Part shown: one piece after another, positions 22,729-40,421 of the stretch | How the letters are laid out: each line of letters starts with the position of its first letter | Position numbering within the stretch: position 1 is the first letter of the stretch | Assembly (NCBI GenBank): GCA_026693065.1 | Contig: JAPLNA010000244.1 | Location: 1 to 40,639 of the forward strand | DNA from: Planctomycetota bacterium | GTDB taxonomy: Bacteria; Planctomycetota; Phycisphaerae; SM23-33 | Direction: 5' to 3' | Length of the DNA: 40,639 nt | Translations under genes and position numbers: made by a program | Notes under the pieces: generated by a model | Database searches by the model: none | What the model saw: the letters and a program-made list of their open reading frames with translations, nothing else | What the model was told of the DNA's origin: nothing

Positions 22729-23618
22729 TTTCCGGCCTCGCGGGTCGCCGGCCGGGGGGCGGTTGTCGGGGCCAGGCGGGGCGGGGCGGTTTCGGCGTCT
22801 CGTTTCTTCGACTCCGCCAGCAGCTTGCGGACCTGCGGGGCCAGGGGAGATTCGCCCTGGCGCTCGAGGTACTTCTCCCACTCGATGACGGCGTGGCCGA
22901 ATTCGTTCTGGCGGTAGTAGGCCAGCCCGCTCCAGTAATGGGCCTCGACGTAGTCGGGGTCCAGGTCCATCGTGCGCATGAACTGCATGATGGCCGCGTC
23001 CATGTTGCCCGCGTAAAAGTGCCCCAGGGCCTTGGCGAAGTGCAGCGAGGCGATGGGGCTCTTGTCGATCTTCGCCAGGTCGATGTCGGGTAGGGGCAGT
23101 TGCATCTGGGCGGCGAGTTTGCGGGCGATCTGCAGGGCCGCCTCGGGCAGGTCGTTCGGGCGGCAGGAGAACTGGTCCGCCGCCAGCACGCGCTCGGAGG
23201 CGATGTCGATCGCCTGCACGCTCACGGTGAGCTTGTCCTGCAACAGGAACAGCCGCCCGACCAGGACGGTGTCGGCGTGGAGGAGTTTTCCGGCGGCGAG
23301 GGCGGCCTTGGAGCCGGTGAGCCCCTTGAGGGCCAGGGTCTGCTCGGCCGTCAGGGCCAGCAGTCGCTGTCGCTCGACGACGGCGATCTCGGGCTGTTCG
23401 GCGAGCATGACGGCGACCATGTCGGCCAGCCCGGCGGCGGCGGGGTCGTACTGCTCCTGGTTGGTGACGTTCTCGAAGGGCCAGGCGAAGACCGTCCGCT
23501 GGGTCTTCTTGGCGGGCCTGCTGGCCGGGCGGGTGGCGAGGGAGGGGGCCTCCGCGGCCCAGCCGGCGGCGCAGAATGCCGCGAGGACCGACACAACAAC
23601 GCCGACGGATCGACTCAT
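22725..23618 (-). CDS. Secreted CsgG/TolB-N-like domain + TPR protein
   Basis: Signal peptide; RTVFAWPFENVTNQEQYDPAAAGLADMVAVMLAEQPEIAVVERQRL; TPR-like MDLDPDYVEAHYWSGLAYYRQNEFGHAVIEWEKYL. Confidence 0.78.
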   Translation of the reverse strand: MSRSVGVVVSVLAAFCAAGWAAEAPSLATRPASRPAKKTQRTVFAWPFENVTNQEQYDPAAAGLADMVAVMLAEQPEIAVVERQRLLALTAEQTLALKGLTGSKAALAAGKLLHADTVLVGRLFLLQDKLTVSVQAIDIASERVLAADQFSCRPNDLPEAALQIARKLAAQMQLPLPDIDLAKIDKSPIASLHFAKALGHFYAGNMDAAIMQFMRTMDLDPDYVEAHYWSGLAYYRQNEFGHAVIEWEKYLERQGESPLAPQVRKLLAESKKRDAETAPPRLAPTTAPRPATREAGK

Positions 23619-24700
23619 TTACCTTCTCCCACGGGTTTGGCGCCGGGCGAGGCGGGGGGCGACAGAATGGTGACGAACTCGTTCAACACCCGCAGGCCCA
23701 GTATTCGCCCGACGTTTTGCAGGGCGGTCTTGCCGGCCAGGGCCTCGGCCAGGTCCACGGCGCGGGCGTCCGCCCGGTCGGGCAGCACGATCCGCCCGGT
23801 CTTGCGTTCGATGACGTTGATCTCGCCCCGGGCGGCGCAGGTGACCAGATCGCCCGTGCGAACGGCGAACTCGCTGAAGGCCTCGCCGACGATGACGTAG
23901 TCGACCTTGTCCAGGGCGCTGGGCCAGGGAGAGTCCTTGGCCTTGACCATCCCGCGAGCCCAGTCGGCCAGGGCGTTTTGCCCGGTGTCCAGCACGGTAA
24001 AGCCCGCCCCCGCGAGCATCTTCTTGATCTCCGTCTCCACGGCTGGGTCGGGCGTCCGGGGGGCGCGGCTGACGTGCGACTCGGGAATGATCACCGCCAC
24101 GATGGGCAGGGCCAGCCCCTTGAGCTTCTCCTTCAGGGCCGGCAGCGGATCTTGCAACTGCATCTTGGGGGGCAGGAGCTTGGTCGCCCCGGTGCGGATG
24201 CGGGTGGCGATCTCGTCGGCCTCGGCGAGGATGGCCGGCAGGAGGGGCTTAGTCACGTCGAGGGTCTGGTAGCGGCCGATCACACGCCCGGTCTCCACGC
24301 CGACGACCTTGGTGACGATGACGACCTGTTTGTCCATCACGAAAGCCTTGCCCATGATGAGCAGTTGAGCGCCGGTGAGGCGCCCGACCTGGGCGGCCGA
24401 GTCGGCCTCCACCAGCCCCACGAGCTTGAGCTTCTGCTCGGCGAGAACCTTCTCGAGGTTCTTGCGTTCGACGAAGACCAGCCCGGGCTCACCGCCCATG
24501 CGGGTGGCGAGGATCTCGGCGATCTGCGGGCCCAGGTCCGTGTTGCCCGGGACGGTCACCTCGTAGTCCAGGACGGCGACGCTCACGTCGGCGGCCTCCC
24601 CGGCCGGCGCGGCGGCCGGGCGGGTGGCCGGGGTGTCAGCTGCCAACGCCGTCGCCGCTGTCAACGCCATCGCCAACAGCCAGGATAGTCTGGTAGTCAT
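23615..24700 (-). CDS. Secreted CsgG-like protein
   Basis: MTTRLSWLLAMALTAATALA signal; VSVAVLDYEV...LGPQIAEILATRMGGEPGLVFVERKNLEKVLAEQKL; ATGA overlaps on both sides. Confidence 0.78.
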   Translation of the reverse strand: MTTRLSWLLAMALTAATALAADTPATRPAAAPAGEAADVSVAVLDYEVTVPGNTDLGPQIAEILATRMGGEPGLVFVERKNLEKVLAEQKLKLVGLVEADSAAQVGRLTGAQLLIMGKAFVMDKQVVIVTKVVGVETGRVIGRYQTLDVTKPLLPAILAEADEIATRIRTGATKLLPPKMQLQDPLPALKEKLKGLALPIVAVIIPESHVSRAPRTPDPAVETEIKKMLAGAGFTVLDTGQNALADWARGMVKAKDSPWPSALDKVDYVIVGEAFSEFAVRTGDLVTCAARGEINVIERKTGRIVLPDRADARAVDLAEALAGKTALQNVGRILGLRVLNEFVTILSPPASPGAKPVGEGK

Positions 24701-25732
24701 TTGGGCTGCTCCTTTCCCGCCTCGGCCTGCCAGGCCAAAACGCGGAGGATCATCTCATTCAACCTACACCGCCCGACCGGGTCAGTGTAAGGGTTTGTCA
24801 ACGGCGGCCATTGGGCGACGACCAGCCGCCCCAACCCCACCGGCGTGGTGGCCAGCAGGGCGCGGACCGAGGGGGCCTCCCCCGGCGGGGGAGGGCACGG
24901 CGCCAGCCAGGCCAGCGGCGTGGTGCGATCGTCGAGCCGAAGGCACAGGGGCCAGGGCCCGCGGCCCAGCCTGGAGAACGGTGCAGACCCCCTTGGCCAG
25001 GGCGACGGGGCCGCTGGCGGCGGGGGAGAGTTTCTGGACGGCCAGGCCCCATCGCGACCACCCCTCGGGCGGGTTGATCAACAGGAGAGTCATGCCGGCC
25101 TGGATTCTCGCGGCGAGCCGGCGGCAGGCCTCCTCCAGCCGCGGGCCGGCCAGAACCACCAGTTCGCCCGCGAAAACGTCGGCGGCCAGGTCGGTGGCGA
25201 GGTTCTGGCAGGTGGCGCCCTCGGCCCGGAGGGCGTGGGCCAGGCCGCCCGTCGGGTCGATCAGCCCGATGCGAAGTTCGCTCAGCCGGGCGGCGCTGGC
25301 GGCGAGCATGCCGCCGGGCAGGACGACGATCGGCCTGGAGACGGCCCGCCCGGCGGCGAGGCGGACGTGGAGGGTGCAGGCGGCGCGGACGCGGACGTCG
25401 GGGGCCTCGAAGGCCGCCTCGCCCCCCGCGTCCGGGCCGGCCAGCACGTCGCCGGAGGCCAGCGACTCGCGCCCGTAGGCCAGCGCCCAGCGGGCCTTCG
25501 AGGCCTCCGGGGCGATCAGCCGAATCTGGAGCCGCTGTCGGCCCATGAGGTGGAGGGTCGGCTGGACCTTTTCGTGGAGTTCCATCGTCGCGTGAACGGC
25601 CGGCTCGGGCGCCGGCGCCGAGGCCTGTCGCTCCCCCGCGGTCGCCAGGGCCCAGGGCCACAGCAGCAGGGCCGCCCCCAGCGGGCCCAGTGGCCATTGG
25701 CATCGCTCGTTCTGACGTGTCCGTTGGTTCAT
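24697..25732 (-). CDS. Secreted protein of unknown function, apparently frameshifted near 24988-24992
   Basis: Signal peptide MNQRTRQNERCQWPLGPLGAALLLWPWALATAG. Main frame is good to ...SPAASGPVALAKG; a different frame then gives SAPFSRLGRGPWPLCLRLDDRTTPLAWLAP...GLGRLVVAQWPPLTNPYTDPVGRCRLNEMILRVLAWQAEAGKEQPK* ending in an ATGA overlap at 24697-24700. Confidence 0.65.
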
Positions 25733-25753: not shown

Positions 25754-26620
25754 TCAACTCAGGCGGATGGCCTGAAGAAAGACCTTCACTTCCCGCTCGC
25801 CCAGGCGGAACTCGCCGATCTGGACGGGCCCTTGCCCGGTCTTGACGGTGCCCTGCACCCCCACGGGCCGGCCGGCCTTGTCGTCAACCTTCACGTGGAG
25901 GGCGACCCAGCCAACCCCGGCCGAGACGTCGCAGACGACAGGCCGACCGGCTAACCGCGCGGCTTCCCCGACCGCCAGCGGAGAGACGGTGCTCGCCGGC
26001 ACGAGGATCTGGAAATCGTCGAGGATCGTTCCGTCGCTGCCGGCGAAGACGCAGCGGACGGAGACGGCGCCACCCTCGGCCGGGGCGCCCGAGGAGGGCT
26101 CCTGCCCGAAATTGTCCCCGCCGTTCCGCACGAGGATCCAGGTGGCCGAGTCGCCCGAGGCGATGGCCCCCCACAGTCCGCGAAGGCGGGCCAACTGGGC
26201 CGGCGTGGACTCGGGAATGACCGGTCCGGCGGCCTGCATGGTCTGAATGGTTGGGCCGGCCGGGGCGTTCTGTCGCATCGCCCACAGCCCTATCCCCGCC
26301 GCCAGCAGGAGCGACGCCGCCGTCGCCAGAGGCCAGCCGAGCATCCGGCGGCGCTGGGGGCGGGCCGTCCCGGCCGGACGCGGCAGCCGGGACAACACCT
26401 GCGACATCCCCTCGGCGATCTTGCCCTCGATGCCGTCGTACCCGAACGCCTGCCGGGCGCGGCGGCGGCAGTCGAGCATGTCGGCCAGCAGCCGCCGGGC
26501 GGATTCATCCGTCGCGACACGGTCGAGGGTCTCCTGACGTTCCGGCTCGGCCAGCTCGCCGCGGATCAGGGCGTCCAGGCGAATCTCCAGGTCCAGTGGG
26601 TCGTTGTTGTTCATTGTCAT
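25754..26620 (-). CDS. Anti-sigma factor-like / FecR-like single-pass membrane protein
   Basis: DLEIRLDALIRGELAEPERQETLDRVATDESARRLLADMLD, then TM segment MLGWPLATAASLLLAAGIGLWAM, then a C-terminal extracytoplasmic part; translationally coupled (ATGA, 26617-26620) to the ECF sigma gene. Confidence 0.7.
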   Translation of the reverse strand: MTMNNNDPLDLEIRLDALIRGELAEPERQETLDRVATDESARRLLADMLDCRRRARQAFGYDGIEGKIAEGMSQVLSRLPRPAGTARPQRRRMLGWPLATAASLLLAAGIGLWAMRQNAPAGPTIQTMQAAGPVIPESTPAQLARLRGLWGAIASGDSATWILVRNGGDNFGQEPSSGAPAEGGAVSVRCVFAGSDGTILDDFQILVPASTVSPLAVGEAARLAGRPVVCDVSAGVGWVALHVKVDDKAGRPVGVQGTVKTGQGPVQIGEFRLGEREVKVFLQAIRLS

Positions 26621-27120
26621 GCCTCCGGAAACCGCTGCCGCATGGTCTGGGAAAGTTCCGTCCGGGCCGCATTCACGCGCGAGGCGACCGTGCCGACGGG
26701 GACGCCCAACAGTTCGGCGGCCTCGCGGTAGGAGTAGCCATCCAACACGGTGGCCACAAACGCCTGCCGCATGGGTTGGGCCAGAGCCCCGATCGCCTTG
26801 CGAAGAATCATGAGTTGCTCATTCCTTGCCGCCGTTTCGGGCACGCCGGGCCCGTCGGGGTCTTCGATCAGCGGCGCCCATTCGTCCAGGGGCGCCGCCC
26901 GACGTGTCGTCTCCCGCCGCGACCAGTCCTTCATGCCGTTGACGAGAATCCGGTACATCCACGTCAAGGGGCTGCAGTTGTGCTGAAAGCTGTCCCAATG
27001 CTCGATCGCCCGGCAAAAGGCCTGCTGCGTCAGGTCCGCGGCGTCCGTAACGCTCCCCGTCAGGCGCAAGGCCGTGCGGAACAGCACCGGATACCATGCC
27101 GCTATCTTCTTCTCGTCCAA
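26617..27120 (-). CDS. ECF RNA polymerase sigma factor (sigma-1 of this window)
   Basis: YPVLFRTALRLTGSVTDAADLTQQAFCRAIEHWDSF...TWMYRILVNGMKDWSRR (sigma2) and AFVATVLDGYSYREAAELLGVPVGTVASRVNAAR (sigma4). Confidence 0.93.
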   Translation of the reverse strand: MDEKKIAAWYPVLFRTALRLTGSVTDAADLTQQAFCRAIEHWDSFQHNCSPLTWMYRILVNGMKDWSRRETTRRAAPLDEWAPLIEDPDGPGVPETAARNEQLMILRKAIGALAQPMRQAFVATVLDGYSYREAAELLGVPVGTVASRVNAARTELSQTMRQRFPEA

Positions 27121-27170: not shown

Positions 27171-27197
27171 TTAGACGGCCCCGTGCGGAAAAACTTC
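27171..27197 (-). promoter_or_regulatory. Bipartite promoter-like motif, copy 1 (GAAGTTTTTCCGCACGGGGCCGTCTAA)
   Basis: Minus-strand GAAGTTT (27197-27191) and GTCTAA (27176-27171), 51 nt upstream of the sigma-1 ATG; same spacing as copies 2 and 3. Confidence 0.65.
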
Positions 27198-27253
27198 GGC
27201 CTTTTTCGCCCCGCGCGGGGTTTTCTTTTGCCCGGGAAGATACTCGGGACTTG

Positions 27254-30046
27254 TCATTTCCTCTCCAACAGGGGGTCGATTGTGGGCCCGCGAAGGAGGA
27301 AGGGCCCGGCCGGTTCGGAGGGGAACTGGAGGGTGGGCACGCCCTGCCAGGCGAGCAGGAACCCCCACGCGGGGCTCCAGGCGATCGCGCCACCCAATGC
27401 CCCCAGGCCCGGCTGGGGCGGCGACCCGGCCCACGTGCCGTCGGGGGCCTCCCGAAAGAACTCCAGATGGGACGAGATCTCTTCGCGGAACACGGCCAAC
27501 ACCGTGCCCGACGGGGTTCCGACCGCCGACAAGGACGTGCCCCGCCCGATGCCCATCTGGGTCACCCGTTGGGGGGCCGACCATGTCGCTCCGTCAGGGC
27601 TGCACAACCGCAAGACGGTGGTCATCCCGGTTTCACGGGCCGCCCGTTCGCCTTGCTGCTCCCGGAATTCCGTCGAGGCCACGATCAGCTCGTACGTTCC
27701 GTCGGCGCGACAGAGGAGGCGAACGTCGTCAGGCCTGCCTTTCCAGGGAATGCGGGCGGCGGTCTCCCAGGCGAAGGCGTCGGGCGATCGAAGGACGCGG
27801 ATGTCGTTCTTCTCGGCGGCGACCCAGAGGAACGTCCCGTCGACGCCCTGGGTGATGTCGTAGCTCGAGAGGGTGCGGTCGATCACCATGGCCGGACTGG
27901 ACCAGTTGACCCCGTTGCGCGACCAGCAGAGGTAGGCCCGGCGGTTGTGTTGGGCCTCGCGGTCGGAGAGGAAGGCCAGAAGGACCCGTCCGGATTCATC
28001 TCGTATGACGCGAGGCGAGCCCTCGTACCATCCGCTGGAGACGGGTAGCCCCAGCCGTTGCGGGGGAGTGAACGTCTTGGCGTCGGTGCTCCAGGCCGTC
28101 CAGAGATCGCCCTCGAACGACCAGTAGAGGCGGATGCCGTCGGGGCCCGGCAGGATCGAGAGCGACCCGCCGTCGCTGTTCAGGGCCGCCACGCGAGGCG
28201 GGTAGTCTCGCCCCACGAGCACGCCGCCCGACCACTCTCGCCAGGGGCCTTTGGGGTCCCAATCCAGGGGGACATCTACCCGTTGGGTCTGCCCGGCGAC
28301 CACGTTGACCTCGACCTTGCGTGGCTGCTGGGCGCCCGTGCCCTGCACCTCCAGCACCTGAGGGCCCGGGGGCAGCAGGCCGATCAGTCCCGGGCCCACT
28401 CGCCCCAGCCGCCCGTCCTGCAAGTACACCCGGAAGTACTCCAGACTGGTGCAGCGGACGTCGAGGGCCCCGTGGGCGGCGACCTTGTCGAACTCGGCCA
28501 CCACCCGCATGCCGCGGTAGTCATAGTGCGGGTCGCGATAGCGATCGTTGGCGGTGAAGAAGGTGTGGATCTGGAAGATCCCGCTGGGCGGAAGGCCCTC
28601 GAACACGAAGCCGTCCCGGGCGGCCTGGGGGGCCTGGGCACGCCTGGCCGCGCCGACGTCCGTGAAGTAATGCTTGTGCAGGCAGCAGCCCATCACGCCG
28701 TCGCCCTGGACGATCGGATAGGCTGTGATCTTCCGGAAGACGTATCCGTCGGGGGCCAGGAGGAAATGCCATTGGAACACGTCGGGATAGTACTTCCGCC
28801 CATTGTCCTCATTGATGGAATACCCCGTGTTGGGCTCGGTGGCCAGGTAGCTGGCCTCCCGCTGCCCCGGGGCGAACCGAACGACGCACGTGTTGGCCCC
28901 ATAGCGATGATGGGCCAGAAGCCCCTCCGGCACCAGCACCTGTGCGGTCTGGAGGTTGTGGCGATAGGCGTTGTCCATCGCAATGGCGCAGGCGCCGTTG
29001 ACCACCGTGCCCAGGTAATTCTGCCCCGCCCGGATCTCCCCGTCCGCCGCCGAGCTCAACTCCGTCGCCTCGGCATGCCGCCCCAGGCTGCCCAGAATGC
29101 ACGCGGACCGCGCCCGCAGCCACGCCCGCGTGCTGATCGCCCCCGGCAGATCGAGCACGTTGTATACCAGGCGGTCCCCGAAGCGGCGGAGGAAGTCGGC
29201 GTAGAGGGCCAGCATCGTCTCGGGGGGAGTGTTGAGCTTCTCGTAGGTGTGCAGGTATTCCCGGATCGCGTCCCCGATCCGCGGGTGCGCGGCGTCCATG
29301 TACACGAACTTCTCGTACGCCCGCCGGGCGTGCTCGTAGCGGTCCATGAAATAATACATCCGCCCGACCCAGTAGTGGGCCTCCAGGTACGTCGGGTCCG
29401 TCCGCCAGGCCTGGCGGAACTTCAGCCACGCCTCCGCGTACCGCCCCTGGTCGTACAGGTGAAGCCCTTCGTACAACCCCCGCGTGGCCTCGATGCTCGT
29501 CGTCCAGACCGGCAGGTGGGGCAGGATCTCCTCCGGCGGCACGTCGGAGAACCACCCCAGAAGTTGGGCCGACAGGTTCCTCTGAAGCGACAGCACGTCC
29601 GAGGCCCGGCCTGCGAGGGTCCGCCGGGTGAGTTCCTTGCGTGTCTGGACGTCGATGACCTGGGCGGTCAGTTCGATCTTCTCCCCGTCGAATGTGAACG
29701 TGCCGGTGATCAGCCGGTCGATCTTCAGTTGCTTGCGGGCCTGCGCCATCGCGTCGGGGTTTCCGGTGGCCAGTTCGGGCGTCCACTTCAACTGGGCGGC
29801 CAGGATCTGCATTTCATCCCGCGCCACCACCGTGAGGCGTTGGCTCTGGGTGAAGTCGGTGGTGATCTGATCGGCCAGCCCCTTCTCCAGCCAGACCCAC
29901 TCGGGGGTGTCGGATTTCATCTGGAAGTTGAACACGGCCACGTTGAGCTTGGCGGCGAGGGCGGCCCGCCCGCCCGTCAAGAGCAGGACGATCGCCGCCA
30001 GCCACCAGGGGGCCGTCAGGCCAACATGTTCTTGCGGGCGTCTCAT
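27254..30046 (-). CDS. CsgG/TolB-N-like + TPR + sialidase-like propeller protein, paralog 3
   Basis: [32 protein letters not shown]...VVARDEMQIL; LYDQGRYAEAWLKFRQAWRTDPTYLEAHYWVGRMYYFMDRYEHARRAYEKFVYMDAAHPRIGDAIREYLHTYEK; sialidase-like C-terminus. Confidence 0.82.
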   Translation of the reverse strand: MRRPQEHVGLTAPWWLAAIVLLLTGGRAALAAKLNVAVFNFQMKSDTPEWVWLEKGLADQITTDFTQSQRLTVVARDEMQILAAQLKWTPELATGNPDAMAQARKQLKIDRLITGTFTFDGEKIELTAQVIDVQTRKELTRRTLAGRASDVLSLQRNLSAQLLGWFSDVPPEEILPHLPVWTTSIEATRGLYEGLHLYDQGRYAEAWLKFRQAWRTDPTYLEAHYWVGRMYYFMDRYEHARRAYEKFVYMDAAHPRIGDAIREYLHTYEKLNTPPETMLALYADFLRRFGDRLVYNVLDLPGAISTRAWLRARSACILGSLGRHAEATELSSAADGEIRAGQNYLGTVVNGACAIAMDNAYRHNLQTAQVLVPEGLLAHHRYGANTCVVRFAPGQREASYLATEPNTGYSINEDNGRKYYPDVFQWHFLLAPDGYVFRKITAYPIVQGDGVMGCCLHKHYFTDVGAARRAQAPQAARDGFVFEGLPPSGIFQIHTFFTANDRYRDPHYDYRGMRVVAEFDKVAAHGALDVRCTSLEYFRVYLQDGRLGRVGPGLIGLLPPGPQVLEVQGTGAQQPRKVEVNVVAGQTQRVDVPLDWDPKGPWREWSGGVLVGRDYPPRVAALNSDGGSLSILPGPDGIRLYWSFEGDLWTAWSTDAKTFTPPQRLGLPVSSGWYEGSPRVIRDESGRVLLAFLSDREAQHNRRAYLCWSRNGVNWSSPAMVIDRTLSSYDITQGVDGTFLWVAAEKNDIRVLRSPDAFAWETAARIPWKGRPDDVRLLCRADGTYELIVASTEFREQQGERAARETGMTTVLRLCSPDGATWSAPQRVTQMGIGRGTSLSAVGTPSGTVLAVFREEISSHLEFFREAPDGTWAGSPPQPGLGALGGAIAWSPAWGFLLAWQGVPTLQFPSEPAGPFLLRGPTIDPLLERK

Positions 30047-30049
30047 GCC

Positions 30050-32473
30050 TTACCAGTTCCTCGGTTTCGTAGTTGTCGCCTCGTCGGCCCGGGGCAACCG
30101 GGCCGGGGCGTCGAGGGGTTTGTCCTTGGGCAGGGCACGCACGCGGAGATCCTGGAAGCGGATCTGCCCCTGCGGCGTGCCCGTGCCCTTCCACAGCAGC
30201 AGCACCCCCGGGCCGCTCCGCTCGATGTTCTCGACGGTCAGGTCCGGCTTGGCCCCGTCCCGCAGGAACAATGCCACCTTGTTCCCCCGCGTGCGGAGGC
30301 AGAAGGGCAGGGGGGTGGAGAAGTCGACTCCCTCGGCCCGGACGCAATGGCTGTCGTCCAGGAAGCCGATCGCCACGGTTCGGTAACGGGGATAGAACCA
30401 CACCGTGGGCATCGCGCCGCCAAACTGCCCCCACCAACCCAGCGTGGCACGCGGGTCACGATCGACGTCGCCGAACGCGACCGTCCCGACGATCTCCAGG
30501 TCGTCGGGCAAAGTCAGGTCCAGGGCGGCCCCGTGGGACTTACCGGCCGGCGCCCACCCGACCAGCGTCGAGCCCTCCAGCCGCCTTCCCCGCCCAGACC
30601 CGTCGTCGGGTTTATCCTTCACCAGATCCCTCTGGCAGAGCGACAGTCCATCCTTGGAGAGCATGGCCTCCAACTGCTTGCGGCGGGTCTCCAGGCTTGC
30701 GGTGAGGTACTCCCGGGCCTCGGGCGACGGGGCCGCCGCCTCCAGCAGTTGCTTCTGCAACGCCGCGACCTTCACGGCGTCGGAGGCCCGGCAGGCCTGT
30801 TCGTGAGCCCGGAGCAAGGCCAGCATCGCCTGGTTGTCGACCGCCGTGGCGGAATACATGTACCAGGTCAACTCCCGCATCGAGATCGTGCAGTCGCTCC
30901 AGAATATCCGTGCCTGGCAAGGCCCGCGATCGTCCCCCGACGGCGGGCCGGCGTACATCGCCACGTCGTTCACGCTCACGCGAAGCCCCTCGGGCCCCGC
31001 CGCCAGGCTCAGCCGATTCCACGCCTTGGGATCGTAGATCTGCGGGCCGTCGTATCCACTGGGCATCCCGGCCGCCGGGTCGCGCACTGACACCCCCCCG
31101 CATCGGTCCATCCGAACCACCGACCGGGCGCCGGGCCATTCAATGAACAACGCTGCCAACGACCGCGTTTCGGGGCGGGCCAGGCCATGGGAGACAATCT
31201 TCACCTGCGCGTCCAGCCGCCCGAGCCCTTTGCCGGCGAACGCGAATTCGTCGTCGTATCCCCCTTGCTCGGCCGACAGGGGCCCGTACCACGGCTTGTA
31301 GTCCACCAGCACGGCATGCCGCCGAGCGGGGGCCTTCTCCGGCTCGGCCGCCAGCACCTTCCGCCACCGCTCCGGAACGGCCGACAGCGGCATCCGGCCG
31401 GCCAACTCCCTCGCCTTGGCCATCCCCATCTGGGCCGCCACGGCCTGGAGGACCCATTCCTCCTCCTCGCTCATAACACCGGGCACGCGCCGGATCGTCT
31501 GGCGGTTCTTTTCCCAGAACGCCAGGCACGCCGCCGCGTCGTCGCTGAGCAGTTCCAACTGAGGCCAATGGAGCGATTCGATGGCCCACCACGCGTTGGC
31601 TCGCTCGGCCTGCTCGATCGCCTCGGCGGTCACGCGTCGCGCCGAGGCCCGATCTCCCAGCAGCAGGTGAGCGCGGGCCAGCTGGTTGGGCAGGATGCCA
31701 TACGTCCCCAAGCCGCCGGGTGTGGTGTCTTTGGCCTCGCCCGCCAGCCGGGCAGCCAGCGCCAGCGACTCACGCGCCTGCCCCGCCCAACGCAACTCCA
31801 ACGCCCACCCGCACAGAACCAGCACGTCGCGGCAGCCCAACTTCCAGGCCTCCTCGAAGGCCTTCACCGCCGGTTCGTGCCGCCCGTTCTGCGAGTGCTC
31901 CAGGGCCTCGAGCACCTTGCCGTCCCACACTCCCGACTGCCCGAACCGCGTATACAGGCCCGGCAGGTCCGTCAGTTCCGAGAACCCCTGGACAGACCAA
32001 TCCCCCCGCGCCACCGACAGCTTGCTCTTGCCCTTGCCCTTATGCCAGACCTCGACGGTGCGCGGCGGCCGCTCGCCTTCCCCCAACTGCTGCACGTGGA
32101 AGATCCGCCGCCCGTCGATCCGGAAGACCACATCCCCGGGCTCGATCCCTTCGGGCGCCGGTTGGTTTGTCCGGATCGGCCAGAGGGCCCCCATGGCCGG
32201 GCGCTCCATGTCGTCCAACAGGAACTCGACGCGGCTCCTGGCCTCCGCCCCCAGCGCGGGGTTCTTCAGGGCCGCGCGCAACGCCTCGCCCGCCGGCTCG
32301 CCGATCATCATCAATTCCTTGTGCGCCTCCGCCCGAACCTGCAGGTCCGGGGAGTTCAACTTCCCGACCCATTCTTTTGCCCCCGCCCCTTGCTGCCCCC
32401 GCGCCGCCCCCGCCAGCAGCAGGCACGCCGCCATCGTCCAAGCCCATTCCGCCGCGTCGGTTCGGCCAGCCAT
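30050..32473 (-). CDS. Secreted mosaic protein: HEAT-like + PDZ-like + TPR-like + laminin/DUF1080-like C-terminus
   Basis: Signal MAACLLLAGAARGQ; SPDLQVRAEAHKELMMIGEPAGEALRAALKN (HEAT-like); GIEPGDVVFRIDGRRIFHVQQL (PDZ-like); helical repeats; C-terminal VDYKPWYGPLSAEQGGYDDEFAFAGKGLG... Confidence 0.6.
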   Translation of the reverse strand: MAGRTDAAEWAWTMAACLLLAGAARGQQGAGAKEWVGKLNSPDLQVRAEAHKELMMIGEPAGEALRAALKNPALGAEARSRVEFLLDDMERPAMGALWPIRTNQPAPEGIEPGDVVFRIDGRRIFHVQQLGEGERPPRTVEVWHKGKGKSKLSVARGDWSVQGFSELTDLPGLYTRFGQSGVWDGKVLEALEHSQNGRHEPAVKAFEEAWKLGCRDVLVLCGWALELRWAGQARESLALAARLAGEAKDTTPGGLGTYGILPNQLARAHLLLGDRASARRVTAEAIEQAERANAWWAIESLHWPQLELLSDDAAACLAFWEKNRQTIRRVPGVMSEEEEWVLQAVAAQMGMAKARELAGRMPLSAVPERWRKVLAAEPEKAPARRHAVLVDYKPWYGPLSAEQGGYDDEFAFAGKGLGRLDAQVKIVSHGLARPETRSLAALFIEWPGARSVVRMDRCGGVSVRDPAAGMPSGYDGPQIYDPKAWNRLSLAAGPEGLRVSVNDVAMYAGPPSGDDRGPCQARIFWSDCTISMRELTWYMYSATAVDNQAMLALLRAHEQACRASDAVKVAALQKQLLEAAAPSPEAREYLTASLETRRKQLEAMLSKDGLSLCQRDLVKDKPDDGSGRGRRLEGSTLVGWAPAGKSHGAALDLTLPDDLEIVGTVAFGDVDRDPRATLGWWGQFGGAMPTVWFYPRYRTVAIGFLDDSHCVRAEGVDFSTPLPFCLRTRGNKVALFLRDGAKPDLTVENIERSGPGVLLLWKGTGTPQGQIRFQDLRVRALPKDKPLDAPARLPRADEATTTKPRNW

Positions 32474-32739
32474 TCCAGTTTCTCCCGTCGGTCGTCAACA
32501 TCCTACCGGATACAGGATACCGCGCCGATCCGCTCCCGGCAGCAACTCTCCGTCCCCCTTTTGACGCCCGACCCCCGCCCCCGCTTCACCGAATTTTCCT
32601 CCGGGCCGTCCCGTTTCCCAATCCAACGGCACGGCCCGGCCGGCGCGAAAGGGTCGACCGGGCCGCTGGGCATACGCCCTACCATACAGCGTATCGTATT
32701 GTCGCCGAATCGGGTCTGGCGGGGTTGCGGTCGGCATGC

Positions 32740-33819
32740 TCAAAGCATGTGCCTTCGCTTCCGTATGACCGCCAATCCGCCCAGGGCCACCAGGGCCAGC
32801 GTGGTCGGTTCGGGAACCAGGGCGACCCGGAATCCGGTGTTGTTGGGATTGTAGTTGCCAACGCCCGACGGATACCCGTTGCAATAAGAGAAGGACCGCC
32901 CTGACGCATACATGTCCATGTCGGTGAAGTAGTACGCTCCACCCCGCAGGCCGCGTCGGTCGCCGTACAGATTCGCCTCGTTCCACTCGAAGACGTTCCC
33001 GCCCTGATCGAACGTGCCGTGGGGCCCCGAGGAGTTCTGGAACTCGCCGGCCACCGTGGTGTAATACATGTCCGTGTCAATGGGATAGATATACGGCGTC
33101 GTGAAGTAGTTGGCGTTGTTGCCGGAGACGTCGTCCAGATCAGCCGTTGGGCTCTTGTTGGACCTCGTCGGATAGTTCCAGTAGCCGGCGCTGGTCGAGC
33201 CTCCCTTGTAGTAGGCCGCCTTGTACCACTCGTCTTCGGTGGGAATCACGTATTTGGCATTAGCCTTCCGCGTCACGGCCATAAGGGCTGCGTTGGTCCT
33301 GGCCCCATTGAGATAGTACGAGCCATCCTCTGTGGTGGAGGCGTCCTGTGCCCCCGTGGGCCGGCCGTTGGTCAGCCAGTTGGCGAACCGTGCGGCGTTT
33401 CCCCAGTTTATGTAGTTTACGGGCCGGTTCGCCCATTCATCGCCGATGCTGTACGTGTAGCTGCCGGATAACCCGTTCTGCCGGATGTTGCATCCATGGT
33501 AGAGCGGCCTACCCATCTGCAGGTTGTACAGTCCGAACGTATCGGTAGCGGCCACGGCGTTCAGGAAAGCCGTGTATTGGCCAGCCGTCACCTCGAACTT
33601 GCCGATGCTGTAGGTGTAGGCCACTGCGCCGTAGCCTTCGGGTCTATCGGACAGGTTGTATCTCATGTCCGCCGCGTTGCCACGATCGCCGACGGCGCAC
33701 CAGAGCGCCGGATCGTTCCAGTTATTCCAGTCTGCCGGCCAGGGGGCGTGCGTCTGGGCTCCGGCCGCCGCACCCAACATGAACACGGTCGTCGTCACGA
33801 GTATGGTTGTCTTTCGCAT
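32740..33819 (-). CDS. SUMF1/FGE-like PEP-CTERM protein, tandem copy 1
   Basis: QTHAPWPADWNNWNDPALWCAVGD...YSIGKFEVTAGQYTAFLNAV...VIPTEDEWYKAAYYKGG...GTFDQGGNVFEWNEAN...RGLRGGAYY...GFRVALVPEPTTLALVALGGLAVIRKRRHML. Confidence 0.9.
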   Translation of the reverse strand: MRKTTILVTTTVFMLGAAAGAQTHAPWPADWNNWNDPALWCAVGDRGNAADMRYNLSDRPEGYGAVAYTYSIGKFEVTAGQYTAFLNAVAATDTFGLYNLQMGRPLYHGCNIRQNGLSGSYTYSIGDEWANRPVNYINWGNAARFANWLTNGRPTGAQDASTTEDGSYYLNGARTNAALMAVTRKANAKYVIPTEDEWYKAAYYKGGSTSAGYWNYPTRSNKSPTADLDDVSGNNANYFTTPYIYPIDTDMYYTTVAGEFQNSSGPHGTFDQGGNVFEWNEANLYGDRRGLRGGAYYFTDMDMYASGRSFSYCNGYPSGVGNYNPNNTGFRVALVPEPTTLALVALGGLAVIRKRRHML

Positions 33820-33867
33820 GGTTCTTCTCCCTGGTTCTAGGGTTACGAGCCCTTTTGTTCGGATTGG

Positions 33868-34926
33868 CTACTTTCTTCGCTTCCGTCCCGACAGAATCGG
33901 AACCGCGCCGAAGAGAATGAAGAACGTAACCGGCTCGGGGACGGCGGCAACCCGGAACCCGATGTTGATCTGCTGGTACGTCGGGACGTGGTAGGCCTTG
34001 TTAATGACATGCATGTAGTTCGAGTCGCCGTTGAAAAGCCCGCCCCGCTGGCCACGATAGATCCCGCCGGCGGCCGTCTCGTTCAATTCCTCAACATTGC
34101 CCCCCTGGTCGAACGTGCCGTAGGGGCCGGGAGAGTTCTGGAACTCGCCCACTTCCGTGGTGTTCTTTCCGGAGTCAATCGGCTGGTCCCAACTGTGGCC
34201 GTAGTTCGCGTTGTTTCCGGCGGCGTCGGCCATACTGGCGCCGGGGGCGGCGTTGCTTCTCGTGGGATAGGTCCAGTAACCGGCGTTGGTCGAGCCGCCC
34301 TTGTAGTAGGCCGCCTTGTACCACTCGTCCTCGGTGGGAATCACGTACTTGGCATTGGTCTTCCGCGTCACGGCCATCAGGTCTGCATTCAGCGTTGCCC
34401 CGTTGAGGTAGTACGAGCCATCTTCCGTGGTGGAGGCGTCCTGCGCTCCTGCAAGCTGGCCATTGGTCAGCCAGTTAACGAATCGCGCCGCATCGCCCCA
34501 CGACACGAAATTCACCGGCCGGTTGGCGTAATCCGGGGCCACGTTGTAGGTGAAGCTGCCCGAAGACCCGGTTCGTTTGATGTTGCATCCGTAGGGATAG
34601 ACCGCCGTGTCCATGTTCGAGTTGTACAGGGCGTAGGTGTCCCTCGCCGCCACCGCGTTGAGGAACGCCGTGTACTGTCCCGCTGTCACCTCGAACTTGC
34701 CGATCTTGTACGTGTAGGGCACGGCACCGTAGCTTGGGATCCCGAATGTCGTGTCGGGATACCGCGTATCCCCCACATTCCCCGGATCGCCCACGGTACA
34801 CCACAAGGCCGGATCGTTCCAGTTGTTCCAGTCCGTCGGCCAAGGGGCGTGCGTCTGCCCCTGCACCACTCCGGCCAGCGTCATCGCCGCTGCCGTCACG
34901 CCCGCGATTATCGTTGTCCTTCGCAT
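33868..34926 (-). CDS. SUMF1/FGE-like PEP-CTERM protein, tandem copy 2
   Basis: MRRTTIIAGVTAAAMTLAGVVQGQTHAPWPTDWNNWNDPALWCTVGD...IGFRVAAVPEPVTFFILFGAVPILSGRKRRK; SD ggagag upstream. Confidence 0.9.
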   Translation of the reverse strand: MRRTTIIAGVTAAAMTLAGVVQGQTHAPWPTDWNNWNDPALWCTVGDPGNVGDTRYPDTTFGIPSYGAVPYTYKIGKFEVTAGQYTAFLNAVAARDTYALYNSNMDTAVYPYGCNIKRTGSSGSFTYNVAPDYANRPVNFVSWGDAARFVNWLTNGQLAGAQDASTTEDGSYYLNGATLNADLMAVTRKTNAKYVIPTEDEWYKAAYYKGGSTNAGYWTYPTRSNAAPGASMADAAGNNANYGHSWDQPIDSGKNTTEVGEFQNSPGPYGTFDQGGNVEELNETAAGGIYRGQRGGLFNGDSNYMHVINKAYHVPTYQQINIGFRVAAVPEPVTFFILFGAVPILSGRKRRK

Positions 34927-34969
34927 CGTTTCTCTCCTTTGGGCTCGCAAACACGTGAGTTCTGTTGGG

Positions 34970-36019
34970 CTATTTCCTTCGTTTTCGCAGCTCCGCCAGC
35001 CCGGCTATCCCCAGCAGGGCCATCATGCCCGGTTCGGGAACCTGGACGAGGCGGAACCCGACGGCCGGGGCCTCCAGCGACGGGCTGTCGAGGTCGTCCC
35101 GGTTCGCCGCTTGCAGGTGGTAGTCGGCACTGCCGGCCGACCCGCCCCGCAAACCGCGGTATTCGCCGTACTGGACCGACTCGTTCCACTCCCAGACATT
35201 GCCCCCCTGGTCGAACGTGCCGTAGGGACTGGGGGAGTTCTGGAACTCGCCGGCGAGGGTGGTGTAGTGGTCAGGGTCGATGAGATTGGGGCTCTGGCCG
35301 AGGTAGTTGGCGCTGTTGCCCGAAGCGTCGGCTGTGTCCCGCCCCGGGGCGGTGTTGCTGGCGGTGGGGTAGTCCCAGTAGCCCGCGTTGATCGAGCCGC
35401 CTTTGTAGTAGGCGGCCTTGTACCACTCGTCCTCCGAGGGAATGGCCCATGTGGCGCCGGGCTTTCGCGTTACCGCCATCAGGGCCGCGTTGCTCGTCGC
35501 GCCGTTGAGATAGTACGCCCCGTCCTCCGTCGTGGCGAGGCCCTGCGGGCCGCGGGGCCGCCCGTTGTGCAGCCAGTTGGCGAACCGCGCCGCGTCGGCC
35601 CAGGAAACGTAGTTCGCCGGCCGGCTGACGTGGTCGGAATCCACGCTGTAAACGTAACTGCCCGGCGCGCCGCTCCGCGCGATCCCGCTGCCGTAGGTGG
35701 TATTGGCCATGCCCGCGTTGTACAGGCCGTAGGCATCGGTCTCGGCCACGGCGCTCAGGAATGCCGTGTACTGACCGGCCGTGACCTCGAACGTGCAGAT
35801 CTTGTACGTGCAGTCCACCTGCCCGCAGATGCGGTTGTGCCCGGTCCCGCCCGCGCCGGCGCCGGAGAGTTCCCCGGCGTTCCCCGGATCGCCCACGGTG
35901 ACCATCAGGGCCGGGTCGTTCCAGTTGTTCCAGTCCGCCGGCCAGGGGGCGTGGGTTTGTCCCATCGCCGCCGCCGCCAGCATCATCACCGTTGCCGGAA
36001 TTATCGTTGCCGTTCGCAT
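34970..36019 (-). CDS. SUMF1/FGE-like PEP-CTERM protein, tandem copy 3
   Basis: MRTATIIPATVMMLAAAAMGQTHAPWPADWNNWNDPALMVTVGD...GTFDQGGNVWEWNES...RGLRGGSAG...VGFRLVQVPEPGMMALLGIAGLAELRKRRK. Confidence 0.9.
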   Translation of the reverse strand: MRTATIIPATVMMLAAAAMGQTHAPWPADWNNWNDPALMVTVGDPGNAGELSGAGAGGTGHNRICGQVDCTYKICTFEVTAGQYTAFLSAVAETDAYGLYNAGMANTTYGSGIARSGAPGSYVYSVDSDHVSRPANYVSWADAARFANWLHNGRPRGPQGLATTEDGAYYLNGATSNAALMAVTRKPGATWAIPSEDEWYKAAYYKGGSINAGYWDYPTASNTAPGRDTADASGNSANYLGQSPNLIDPDHYTTLAGEFQNSPSPYGTFDQGGNVWEWNESVQYGEYRGLRGGSAGSADYHLQAANRDDLDSPSLEAPAVGFRLVQVPEPGMMALLGIAGLAELRKRRK

Positions 36020-36079
36020 GGTTTCTCTCCTGTTTGGCTCTCTTGTCTTTCCGTCAAAGATCACTCTTGCCCCACGTGG

Positions 36080-38233
36080 TTACTTCCGCCGTTTCCGAAT
36101 CACGACCAGCGTTCCCACGGCCAGCAGGCTCAGCGTGGCCGGTTCGGGGGTCGGGGTCAGCAGGAGGATGGTGCGCCCGGAGCGGGCAAGGATCTGGCCC
36201 TGATCGTTGATATCGACCGCATTGGTGATCTGCCAACCGGTCACCAGGTCGGACAATTGGTACATGGTCGAGTCCTGGTAGAGGAACCCATACCCGGCCG
36301 AGTCGTTGAGCCCGACGATCTGGTTGCGGTTATTGACGGCGTTGGCGTAGGTACGGGAGGTGGTGGCCAGGCGGGTGATCTGCCCGGAAGAGTCCCACAT
36401 CACCGGATAGGGCACTCCGTTGGCGGCCTCAGCGTATCCGACGACGGTGCCCTGCTCGTTGATATCATAGGCCAGGCTGTTGTTCCCGCCCAGCGTCGAC
36501 AAGGCTCGAACCGTCCCGTTCTCCCAGACTGTCGCCCGATACGGGGAGGACTGGGCCGTCAGGCACGAGTCGCCGACGGCGACTCCGGCGTCGTTGAGGG
36601 CATGCAGTTCACTGGTGCCGCCCAGAGACGGCAGATCGGTCCGCTGCCCGTTGGCTTGCCAAAGGCAGGCCACCTTGCCTCCCGTGCTCGGGTAGTAGTA
36701 CCCGCCGATCTGCCCACCGGTGTTGATGTCCAATGCGAACCCGGTGGCCGAGGCATAGTCCAGGTCCTCGATGCCCCCGTTGCGCCACACGCAGGGGATA
36801 ATCGCGTGGTTGCTCTGCACTTCGTAGTAGCCCACAACCGTTCCGGCATCGTTGACGTTGACGGCCCAGCAGTGCCGGTATCCGTCCGACGGCCCGATGG
36901 TGGTGAGCTTGCCACCCTCTTTCTTCCACGCCGACCCTTGCGAGTATCCGACCACCGTGCCCTGCTGGTTGACCGCATAGCCATAGGGGACGTACCCGGG
37001 GGTGTCGAGCACGACGGAGACGTCATAGCGGCTGGGGACGGCCATGGCCGTTCCGGCCGCTCCCAGCACCAGCAGCGGCAGGGCCGCCCGGAAGAACCAG
37101 CCGCCGCGGCGGCGTGGCGAGTTCCGGGCTTCCGGGGTCACGCGAGAAGCAGGCACGTTGTGTGTTCGCCTGCGCCGCCACAGTCCCAGGGCGGCAAGGG
37201 CCATCAACGACACGCTGGCCGGCTCGGGGACTGCCTCCACGCTGCGGTAAACGAAGGACGGGGTCGTGGCCCACGTGCTGACGTACAGATGATGGTCGGT
37301 CCCCTCGACGACGGTCTTGGGGCACCCCGCCGCCGGAGGCCAGGCCATCGCCTGCCAACTGGCGCCGTGGTCCGCGCTGCGGTACACGCCCCCGGCCGTT
37401 ACGCTATCGTCGACCGCGTAGATCGCCCCGTCGGAGGCCTCGATGACCGCGGTGACGTCGTAGATGTTCGACCAACTGGCCGTGGGCGTCCAGGTCTGGC
37501 CCCCATCGCTCGACCGGGCGACCATGCCCGGCGAGCGGGTTCCAGCGTAAAGGTAACCGTCCCGGGCCGCCACCATCGAGTTGACGATCCCGACGCCCTT
37601 GCCCGGGAACGCCCCGCCGGTAAGCCACTGCTGGCCGTCGGTGCTGCGGAAGACCTTCGAGTGGGTGGCGGCATAGAGAGTGCCGTCGGGCCCCTGGCAG
37701 AAGTCAAAGATGCTGTAGGTGGACTCCAGGGTCGCTGCCAGGCCCCATGTCGTCCCACCGTTGGTGCTGCGGTAGACCACCCCGCTGTTGGTAGTGCCGG
37801 CGTACACCGACCCGTTGACGGCCCCCAGGACGCTATAACAACTCATGTCCGGCAAGGAGGTGGTCACCCGGGTCCACGTGGTCCCGCCGTTGGCCGTCCG
37901 GTAGATGCCACCGGGCCATGTGCCGCCATAGACCGCGGCGTAGATATCCCCGTTGGGGGTCCGGCTCAGGTCGTACACACGGCCGGTGTTGGCCAGGCTC
38001 GCGGTGGGCGTCCATGTCAGCCCGCCGTCAGCGGTCTTGTACACGCCGGCCCCGCTGCCGGTGCCCGCGTACACGGTCCCGTCGGGGCACGCAAGGAGAG
38101 TGTCGATATAGCCGGCACCTTGAAAGACGCCTCGCCGGACGAAGTCCCAACTGCCCCATGTCAACTCGGTGGACCCGCACACGGCCAGAATTGCCGCGGT
38201 CGCCGCCGCGATCCTCTTCATCCTCTCACTCAT
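36080..38233 (-). CDS. Fused protein: BNR/YCF48-like repeats + internal PEP-CTERM + second signal-like segment + HAF repeats + terminal PEP-CTERM
   Basis: Likely start MSERMKRIAAATAAILAVCGS at 38233. BNR-like YKTADGGLTWTPT / YRTANGGTTWTRV repeats; internal VPEPASVSLMALAALGLWRRRR; then RRRGGWFFRAALPLLVLGAAGTAMA; HAF-like AVNQQGTVVGY / VNVNDAGTVVGY / YDINEQGTVVGY; C-term TPEPATLSLLAVGTLVVIRKRRK. No in-frame stop between the halves. Confidence 0.82.
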   Translation of the reverse strand: MSERMKRIAAATAAILAVCGSTELTWGSWDFVRRGVFQGAGYIDTLLACPDGTVYAGTGSGAGVYKTADGGLTWTPTASLANTGRVYDLSRTPNGDIYAAVYGGTWPGGIYRTANGGTTWTRVTTSLPDMSCYSVLGAVNGSVYAGTTNSGVVYRSTNGGTTWGLAATLESTYSIFDFCQGPDGTLYAATHSKVFRSTDGQQWLTGGAFPGKGVGIVNSMVAARDGYLYAGTRSPGMVARSSDGGQTWTPTASWSNIYDVTAVIEASDGAIYAVDDSVTAGGVYRSADHGASWQAMAWPPAAGCPKTVVEGTDHHLYVSTWATTPSFVYRSVEAVPEPASVSLMALAALGLWRRRRTHNVPASRVTPEARNSPRRRGGWFFRAALPLLVLGAAGTAMAVPSRYDVSVVLDTPGYVPYGYAVNQQGTVVGYSQGSAWKKEGGKLTTIGPSDGYRHCWAVNVNDAGTVVGYYEVQSNHAIIPCVWRNGGIEDLDYASATGFALDINTGGQIGGYYYPSTGGKVACLWQANGQRTDLPSLGGTSELHALNDAGVAVGDSCLTAQSSPYRATVWENGTVRALSTLGGNNSLAYDINEQGTVVGYAEAANGVPYPVMWDSSGQITRLATTSRTYANAVNNRNQIVGLNDSAGYGFLYQDSTMYQLSDLVTGWQITNAVDINDQGQILARSGRTILLLTPTPEPATLSLLAVGTLVVIRKRRK

Positions 38234-38709
38234 GGCTCTTCTCGCTTTCTTGCCCACGCCAGGGCGTTCGTTCCCATGGGAATACTCCCGCCGGTGGCGG
38301 GCAGACTTGGCGCTACGCCCCTCGAGCCAAGCATTGTCCATGCGGCAAACCACGCTGAGAATCAAGGCGAGCGACTCGTCTCTCAGCACTCACGGAGGCT
38401 CGCCGCGAGCACTTTTCCCAAAAAGCCAACCACCGACAAGTCGGATCCGATGGACCGTTGAGCGTGCCCGCCGAAGTTGAGCAACCTCGGTCGAAGGCGG
38501 ATGGTGGTCCAACCGTTCCTACACCGAACTAACCACTGTGCCGGCCCCAAATGTCGCCGGGCCAAAGCCCCTTGGCGATCCCGTAGCCGACGGAACACAT
38601 CGTGCTGCAAAAGAAACACTTGCCACTAGGTTGCCGGGCACAAACCACCCGCCCGGCCCGCTGATTCACCCTCACGGCTCTACTCGCGCGGGTTCACCAC
38701 GCTATCCTA

Positions 38710-38736
38710 TTAGACGGCCCCCCGGCCGGAAACTTC
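38710..38736 (-). promoter_or_regulatory. Bipartite promoter-like motif, copy 2 (GAAGTTTCCGGCCGGGGGGCCGTCTAA)
   Basis: Minus-strand GAAGTTT (38736-38730) and GTCTAA (38715-38710); intergenic, upstream of the PEP-CTERM block. Confidence 0.6.
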
Positions 38737-38785
38737 GGTGGATTCTGAAACTTTTTCACCGAAACCCCGCCGGGCCGGGGCACGG

Positions 38786-39559
38786 CTAGTGGTCTGTCCC
38801 CGGCTCGTGAAGGGCAGGCGGGCAGGAAGGATCGAGGGCTTCCAGGCCTTTGACCTTCAGGACGACGGATTCATCGACCTCCGCGATGACTTTGGCTTCA
38901 TGATCGGCGAAACGGATGACCCGGTAGCGATACGCCTCCGGCGCTCCGGTGCCGTTGCACTCATCCGTGGCAATGAATAGCTCCACGTCTCCATCGCCGT
39001 CAAAGTCCCCCAGGCACGCAGGCAAACGCGAGCCGTCTTCCAGGATCGTGCTGAAATGATGGCTCTGGACCCCGCCAAAGCCATAGCTGGCATCCCAGAC
39101 AAAGGCCATGACCGCCCTGGCCATAGTGCCCGCGCAGGAACAGGAGAACACGAAAACCGACTGCCCGGTCTTGGGATAGTACAACCATTTGCCGTGCACG
39201 TTCTCGACCGCACAATCCACGGCAAACCGGGCGTACCGGGAGAGATTGGCGGTTGTCAGGTTCTGGCCCGGAGGCAAGGCCCCCAGGTACAACGTGCCCG
39301 TATCCATGACTCCGCCAACGTAACCTTTCGGAGTGAACGATGTCACCACAGCGAACGTCTGCCACCACTTGGGTCGCTCATCCTCCCCCGGGGGCTGGAA
39401 TGTGGCATGCTCCGGCTCGGGCCACACCGCCACAAAGGGCAGGACCTTGTCCCATTCCATATCAACGCCGGCCGGGTTCTGCGCACATCCATGAAGGGCG
39501 CCAAGCAGCCCAACCATAACGGCGGCCATCCTGCCCCGGCTTCGCTTGTCGCGTCGCAT
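38786..39559 (-). CDS. Lipoprotein with FG-GAP/VCBS-like motif
   Basis: SD aggaga and ATG at 39559; MRRDKRSRGRMAAVMVGLLGALHGCAQNPAG (lipobox LHGC); LGDFDGDGDVELFIATDE. Confidence 0.75.
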   Translation of the reverse strand: MRRDKRSRGRMAAVMVGLLGALHGCAQNPAGVDMEWDKVLPFVAVWPEPEHATFQPPGEDERPKWWQTFAVVTSFTPKGYVGGVMDTGTLYLGALPPGQNLTTANLSRYARFAVDCAVENVHGKWLYYPKTGQSVFVFSCSCAGTMARAVMAFVWDASYGFGGVQSHHFSTILEDGSRLPACLGDFDGDGDVELFIATDECNGTGAPEAYRYRVIRFADHEAKVIAEVDESVVLKVKGLEALDPSCPPALHEPGTDH

Positions 39560-39708
39560 GATGATTCTCCTCTGGCGAATCCCATCTTTTCCCATGACCG
39601 GCGTTTCCGATTTGTCGCCTGTCTTCGTCGACGGGCGTGGGCCTCTTGTGGAGTCCCTGGCCGACGAGACATATCTTACTGCAAAAGGGGACACGGCCAG
39701 TAGAAGGG

Positions 39709-40239
39709 CTATTTCGCATCGTCGGGGAAGGCCTTTCGCATGGCCTGGGCCAGGCGGGCGCGGGCGGCGTTGACGCGGGAGGCGATCGTGCCCTCGGGCA
39801 CGTCGAGGGTCTCGGCGGCGTCTTCGTAGGAAAGCCCGTCCATCACGGTAAGGACGAAGGCCCTCCGGAGCCGATCGGGAAGGGTCTCGATGGCTTGCCG
39901 GAGGGCCTCCGTGTGTTCCTGGGCCTTCCGCTGGAGGAGGGCCGCCTCGGCCGCGTCTCCAATAGACACGGCCTCCCACTGATCGAACGCCACTTGGCGG
40001 TCTGCCGATTTCCTCCGCGCCCAGTCCCGCACGCAATTGACCAGGATTCCGTACAGCCACGTTGTCCGCCGCGCCCGTCCGCCGAAGGCGTCCCAATTCG
40101 CCACGGCCTTGCAGATCGCCTCCTGGGTCATTTCGGTGGCGTCATGTTCGTTGCCGGTCAATCGCAAGGCCGTCCGGAAGAGCACCGGATAGGCCTGTTG
40201 AATCTGTTCGTCCCGATCGAGGTTTTCCATTCCGGCCAT
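39709..40239 (-). CDS. ECF RNA polymerase sigma factor (sigma-2 of this window)
   Basis: YPVLFRTALRLTGNEHDATEMTQEAICKAVANWDAF...TTWLYGILVNCVRDWARRK; AFVLTVMDGLSYEDAAETLDVPEGTIASRVNAARARL. Start could also be MENL at 40230. Confidence 0.93.
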   Translation of the reverse strand: MAGMENLDRDEQIQQAYPVLFRTALRLTGNEHDATEMTQEAICKAVANWDAFGGRARRTTWLYGILVNCVRDWARRKSADRQVAFDQWEAVSIGDAAEAALLQRKAQEHTEALRQAIETLPDRLRRAFVLTVMDGLSYEDAAETLDVPEGTIASRVNAARARLAQAMRKAFPDDAK

Positions 40240-40282
40240 GTTCCCTTGGGGTTTCGCCGGTCGGCGTCGGGGGGAATAACGT

Positions 40283-40314
40283 GGCCCGGGCGCCGCTGAG
40301 GCGACGCCCGGGCC
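40283..40314 (-). other. Strong inverted repeat in the presumed 5' leader of the sigma-2 transcript
   Basis: Plus strand ggcccgggcg cCGC tgag GCGa cgcccgggcc: 10-bp perfect outer stem plus 3 inner pairs, one mismatch, 4-nt loop. Confidence 0.6.
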
Positions 40315-40394
40315 GCTCGGAATGCCCCCGGCATGGCTATGTAGTTGTGCATCCGGCCGGCCGATCTTCGCCGGTTTACAGCCGTTCTGCTTTG

Positions 40395-40421
40395 TTAGAC
40401 TTGCCCCGGCCGGAAAACTTC
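40395..40421 (-). promoter_or_regulatory. Bipartite promoter-like motif, copy 3 (GAAGTTTTCCGGCCGGGGCAAGTCTAA)
   Basis: Minus-strand GAAGTTT (40421-40415) and GTCTAA (40400-40395), upstream of sigma-2; A-tracts immediately upstream on the minus strand. Confidence 0.65.

Follow-up and report, generated by a model that had tools for sequence, protein, structure and literature searches.

A putative ECF sigma factor regulon reaching PEP-CTERM gene clusters in an uncultured planctomycete

Autoregulation is common among ECF sigma factors, as is an anti-sigma gene encoded alongside (PMC8103513), and the core of the system described here is therefore ordinary. As in RpoE-RseA, AlgU-MucA and SigK-RskA, the gene of a two-domain sigma factor is preceded by a putative sigma-type promoter and adjoins that of a membrane anti-sigma factor with four N-terminal helices, which are predicted in our case. 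Unlike in these systems, the -35 box contains AAG rather than AAC, the anti-sigma factor matches no Pfam model, and an orphan second paralog lies under the same promoter.

The only regulation of PEP-CTERM/exosortase proteins that we found described is that of Proteobacteria, where PEP-CTERM genes have been tied to sigma-54 (RpoN) with PrsK/PrsR (PMC1569441; PMC9850573). The planctomycete locus resembles this system in that an alternative sigma factor and a conserved upstream element seem to serve a subset of PEP-CTERM genes, and differs from it in that the sigma factor is of the ECF type and not sigma-54. No sigma-54 -24/-12 element (TGGCAC-N5-TTGC, up to one mismatch) was found in the window, by which we mean the whole stretch of 40,639 nucleotides that was analyzed (bases 1-40639 of contig C244). 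Haft et al. list the planctomycete Rhodopirellula baltica with PEP-CTERM and EpsH and no Prs proteins (PMC1569441). A limited literature search returned no paper linking PEP-CTERM, ECF sigma factors and Planctomycetes.

The window belongs to the assembly of an uncultured planctomycete (Planctomycetota bacterium; 441 contigs, 5.68 Mb, 93% complete), the nearest relatives of which, judged by the sigma gene, are metagenome-assembled genomes of Phycisphaerae/Planctomycetales. Two sigma factors are encoded in it, which we call EcfC (for its conserved operon) and EcfU (Table 1).

Motif copies in the window and in the genome

An earlier note on this DNA had reported three copies of GAAGTTT-N14-GTCTAA. 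We found them at the coordinates and on the strand given there, with exactly 21 nt from GAAG to GTCTAA in 3/3. The window holds exactly these three copies, shuffled windows gave 0 matches, and the relaxed motif GAA-N18-GTCTAA recovered only the same sites (0.05 expected). As the note had also stated, all three are intergenic and directed into the next minus-strand gene. Its list of the blocks that they head was mis-ordered with respect to the coordinates: the site at 27171 heads EcfC with the anti-sigma-like and CsgG-like operon, the site at 38710 heads the PEP-CTERM block, and the site at 40395 heads the pair of EcfU and a lipoprotein-like gene. AT-rich, UP-like sequence, which had been claimed upstream of all copies, precedes two of the three (top 0.5% of 30-mers); at the site ending at 27197 this does not hold, as 42% of the 30-mers in the window are equally AT-rich. 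Both additional genomic sites introduced below are clearly AT-rich upstream, bringing the total to 4/5 sites.

Table 1. Features of the window, with the evidence for each.
Feature	Coordinates	Strand	Evidence and remarks
Putative ECF promoter P-ecfU, GAAGTTT-N14-GTCTAA	40395..40421	-	Exact match; AT-rich stretch upstream
EcfU, ECF sigma factor, 176 aa	39709..40239	-	Pfam Sigma70_r2 and r4_2; no adjacent anti-sigma gene, next gene lipoprotein-like
Lipoprotein-like FG-GAP protein after ecfU	38786..39559	-	FG-GAP similarity weak, under the Pfam cut-off; sequence inspection shows a signal peptide with Cys
Putative ECF promoter of PEP-CTERM block	38710..38736	-	Exact match
Conserved leader directly after promoter: 6-bp stem GCGTGG/CCGCGC, then GAGCCGTGAGG	38650..38709	-	Common to C336 and C355
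Single ORF with two PEP-CTERM proteins (BNR propeller, then HAF-repeat)	36080..38233	-	Two PEP-CTERM matches
FGE-sulfatase-domain PEP-CTERM protein 1	34970..36064	-	Domain matches
FGE-sulfatase-domain protein 2, weak PEP-CTERM	33868..34950	-	Domain matches
FGE-sulfatase-domain PEP-CTERM protein 3	32740..33819	-	Domain matches
807-aa protein	30050..32473	-	No Pfam family match; preceded by 266-nt gap
CsgG-like/TPR/propeller paralog, 930 aa	27254..30046	-	35% identical to the 19738-22881 and 14963-17872 proteins; TPR below cut-off
Putative ECF promoter P-ecfC, GAAGTTT-N14-GTCTAA	27171..27197	-	Exact match
EcfC, ECF sigma factor, conserved operon	26617..27120	-	Pfam; relatives 50-57% identical in syntenic operons
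Predicted class I-type anti-sigma factor with four N-terminal helices, a TM-like helix and a beta domain	25754..26620	-	N-terminal model versus PDB
Conserved operon gene, no family assigned	24782..25732	-	Homologs in six relatives
CsgG-family protein	23615..24700	-	Pfam CsgG over cut-off; homologs in six relatives
CsgG/TPR protein	22725..23618	-	Pfam CsgG over cut-off; homologs in four relatives
CsgG-like/TPR/propeller protein, end of conserved operon part	19738..22881	-	Homologs in the same place in three relatives

In the whole genome (5.68 Mb), with spacers of 13-15 allowed, the window copies were the sole exact matches, and the reversed control gave 0. At up to two mismatches the motif had 22 matches, the majority in probable coding sequence; we regard these as background because the reversed control had 39, and claim no further regulon members from the two-mismatch scans. 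Single-mismatch matches on C148 and C152 lay inside probable coding sequence, and a site on C253 (two mismatches) was intergenic but had no clear gene downstream and was dropped. The form GAAG-N17-GTCTAA had seven matches genome-wide, five of them with a CCG..CGGG spacer and heading sigma or PEP-CTERM blocks, while the matches on C171 and C247 lacked the CGGG spacer and lay within ORFs. What remained of the genome-wide scan, which the earlier note had proposed, were nearly all real-looking intergenic sites.

The EcfC operon and the upstream regions of related sigma genes

EcfC and EcfU (167 and 176 aa) both match Pfam PF04542 and PF08281 over cut-off. ECF sigma factors have only sigma2 and sigma4 domains, with a short linker, and both proteins fit this definition. 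Six relatives have the same gene order of sigma, anti-sigma, 24782 gene and CsgG gene (23615). Both of the following genes (22725 and 19738) are also present in G032, G024 and G046; in G027 the counterpart of 22725 is present, after which the contig ends, and in G010 and G020 neither counterpart was found within the stretch fetched. No other regulator was recognizable in the conserved operon.

The model of the N-terminal domain of the anti-sigma-like protein has four helices (residues 8-19, 25-37, 39-59 and 61-77); in the protein these are followed by a TM-like helix (97-117) and, at the C-terminus, a beta domain. When this model was compared with the PDB, the best 12 of 26 matches were short chains from complexes of anti-sigma with sigma factors (RslA, MucA, RsiW), and RskA and ChrR ranked lower. 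The matches are individually weak (E-values 0.9 and higher), and nothing else competes. The N-terminal domain model alone gave matches; the full-length model yielded no useful match in the PDB. The zinc motif Hx3Cx2C is absent from the alignment of the anti-sigma protein, which is not disqualifying, because about 44% of class I anti-sigma factors lack it (PMC7406223). By its predicted fold and its place beside the sigma gene in six relatives, the protein looks like a class I-type anti-sigma factor.

Sigma homologs were gathered from relatives in the family and class; scans of GTDB for the sigma factor added one distant protein to these relatives and nothing more. Their upstream regions were scanned with a matrix built from the five sites of the host only. 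A GAA/GTC pair was found upstream of most of the 11 homologous sigma genes, at 20-22 nt, mostly 21. The forms were GAATTTC-N14-GTCTAA (G046), GAATTTC-N14-GTCCAA (G032, where a run of N separates site and sigma gene), GAAACAx-N14-GTCTAA (G019, G028 and the second copy in G024), GAACTTT-N14-GTCTAA (G053), CAAATTA-N15-GTCTAA (G024, G027), and AAAATTC or AAATTCT before GTCTCA (G020). Against dinucleotide shuffles, the combined p over the 11 homologs, treated as independent, was about 9e-9, a value that is optimistic because some upstream regions are near-duplicates (G024/G027, G019/G024b). The scan was not individually significant upstream of the G010 (p 0.58) and G051 (p 0.16) sigma genes.

This recurrence at homologous sigma genes, with differing spacers, lends good support to the reading of the earlier note, which had suggested ECF promoters with autoregulation and a comparison of orthologous upstream regions. 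The paired elements stand at a fixed spacing upstream of sigma genes in relatives, as would -35 and -10 boxes of ECF promoters, and the window motifs are very probably promoters of autoregulated ECF sigma factors. Counting against this is the AAG of the host -35 box, since the canonical ECF box is AAC (PMC8103513). Bipartite motifs with a fixed gap would also suit a dimeric DNA-binding regulator, for which the motif would be an operator and not a promoter. We consider this hardly credible: the halves form neither inverted nor direct repeats, each box looks like its ECF counterpart at -35 or -10, the motif lies upstream of sigma genes in relatives, and the conserved operon contains no other recognizable regulator.

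PEP-CTERM clusters on three contigs

With the leader downstream of the 38710 site as query, two more places were found in the genome, C355:2423-2506 and C336:8518-8603. At either place GAAG-N17-GTCTAA is present with the GC-rich CCG..CGGG spacer and heads a PEP-CTERM cluster with FGE-sulfatase, HAF-repeat and propeller domains. The self-contained regulon that the earlier note had proposed is not supported, because sites of the same form on other contigs head PEP-CTERM clusters.

The three PEP-CTERM sites are alike from just upstream of the -35 box to about 85 bp downstream of the promoter start, including ATAGCGTGG..CC(A/G)CGCGA..GAGCCGTGAGG, so these three do stem from a single copied segment. 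Identical boxes might then reflect recent DNA duplication, the promoter having been copied with its gene block, and would have little bearing on a common regulator. For the set of sites as a whole this is improbable: the two sigma promoters resemble one another, and the PEP-CTERM sites, in the boxes and a GC-rich spacer alone, and boxes at about the same spacing recur at sigma genes of other genomes, whose spacers differ.

The leader was found nowhere else in the host genome or in 397 other genomes of the class (up to three mismatches), and an Rfam search gave no match in the window or in the leader. Its 6-bp stem would lie at the predicted 5' end of the RNA. Among the three sequences the stem has a single one-sided change (U-A to U-G) and no two-sided changes, which is insufficient proof of a function as RNA. 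That stem and GAGCCGTGAGG constitute a cis-regulatory RNA, a second control point acting jointly with the sigma factor on exosortase cargo, seems rather doubtful. Between ecfU and the lipoprotein gene, 61 bp (39687-39627) match part of the PEP-CTERM-block leader (38613-38553) at 72% identity, both on the minus strand.

Co-transcription of the 807-aa protein gene with the PEP-CTERM block is uncertain due to the 266-nt gap before it. A weak GAAGCGG-N15-GTCAAA in this gap (32587) was unremarkable among the window scores. Two PEP-CTERM proteins joined in one ORF were seen independently in two clusters, in the window (36080-38233, minus strand) and in another (L050 2791-5022, plus strand); in both, an internal PEP-CTERM motif is followed by a signal-peptide-like stretch. 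At a further locus (L051 1945-2953, plus strand), transposase-like ORFs interrupt an FGE-sulfatase/PEP-CTERM gene, the halves of which lie at 3512-2982 and 1872-1342.

The genome has 125 PEP-CTERM matches over cut-off and one full-length, strong exosortase match (C372), and the three clusters are accordingly a minority of the exosortase cargo. Most PEP-CTERM genes in the genome are without an ECF site, and no new GAA-N18-GTC[TC]AA was found in 30 loci at other PEP-CTERM matches, which extend about 1.5 kb to either side and represent only part of the 125. PEP-CTERM genes without an ECF site (the first gene of C355, and C167) have TTGACA-N17-TACAAT followed by a recurrent sequence, which in C355 and C336 is found again after the ECF leader. 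In the corresponding place C336 has an intact TTGACA-N17-TAGGAT and C355 a decayed CCGACA..CGGGAT. It therefore seems that the ECF module was set in front of a housekeeping promoter, adding an inducible start for some clusters, and that the regulon supplements basal PEP-CTERM expression. A 5' region that includes a hairpin around GGCAGGGCGAGAAATCGCTCTCTCGGTCATCCTGCC recurs at some PEP-CTERM genes without an ECF site (L050 454-703, L100 2566-2800 on the minus strand, L087 275-321).

EcfU and the proposed regulon

EcfC and EcfU are 48% identical and have identical promoter boxes, so that sharing or cross-recognition of promoters, as the earlier note had proposed, is plausible. The two grounds for pairing EcfU with these promoters are its own promoter and this identity. 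The five sites could instead be ECF promoters for EcfC alone, EcfU having diverged to other promoters or being in decay. EcfC is the conserved sigma factor, whereas EcfU has no anti-sigma gene, a long branch (1.01 versus 0.4 for EcfC), and no clear ortholog or operon counterpart of its own among 398 genomes of the class. EcfU nevertheless has an intact reading frame and matches over cut-off to both Sigma70_r2 and r4_2, and its promoter boxes equal those of EcfC. We regard restriction of the sites to EcfC as a serious possibility that we do not favor. Beyond ecfU (L037, C244 40500-45811) lie molybdate-transport-like genes and an FdhD-like gene, the first one divergent from ecfU.

Taken together, the motif is very probably the promoter of an autoregulated ECF sigma regulon that recruited some of the about 125 PEP-CTERM loci. 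EcfC would be held at the membrane by the neighboring anti-sigma factor, whose extracytoplasmic beta domain may sense an envelope or matrix signal. On release by this signal, EcfC with RNA polymerase would read GAAG-N17-GTCTAA promoters, raising its own operon (the anti-sigma factor and CsgG-like/TPR envelope proteins), EcfU, and the three PEP-CTERM surface-protein clusters (window, C336, C355). EcfU, which has no adjacent anti-sigma factor, would probably lengthen or strengthen the response, acting through the same promoters.

The genome is rich in PEP-CTERM/exosortase surface proteins, and in this host a switch of a kind common among bacteria appears to govern surface proteins sorted by exosortase. 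If an ECF regulon switches subsets of PEP-CTERM proteins together with CsgG-like envelope proteins, the timing and cause of surface change in this planctomycete would become testable via a few promoters.
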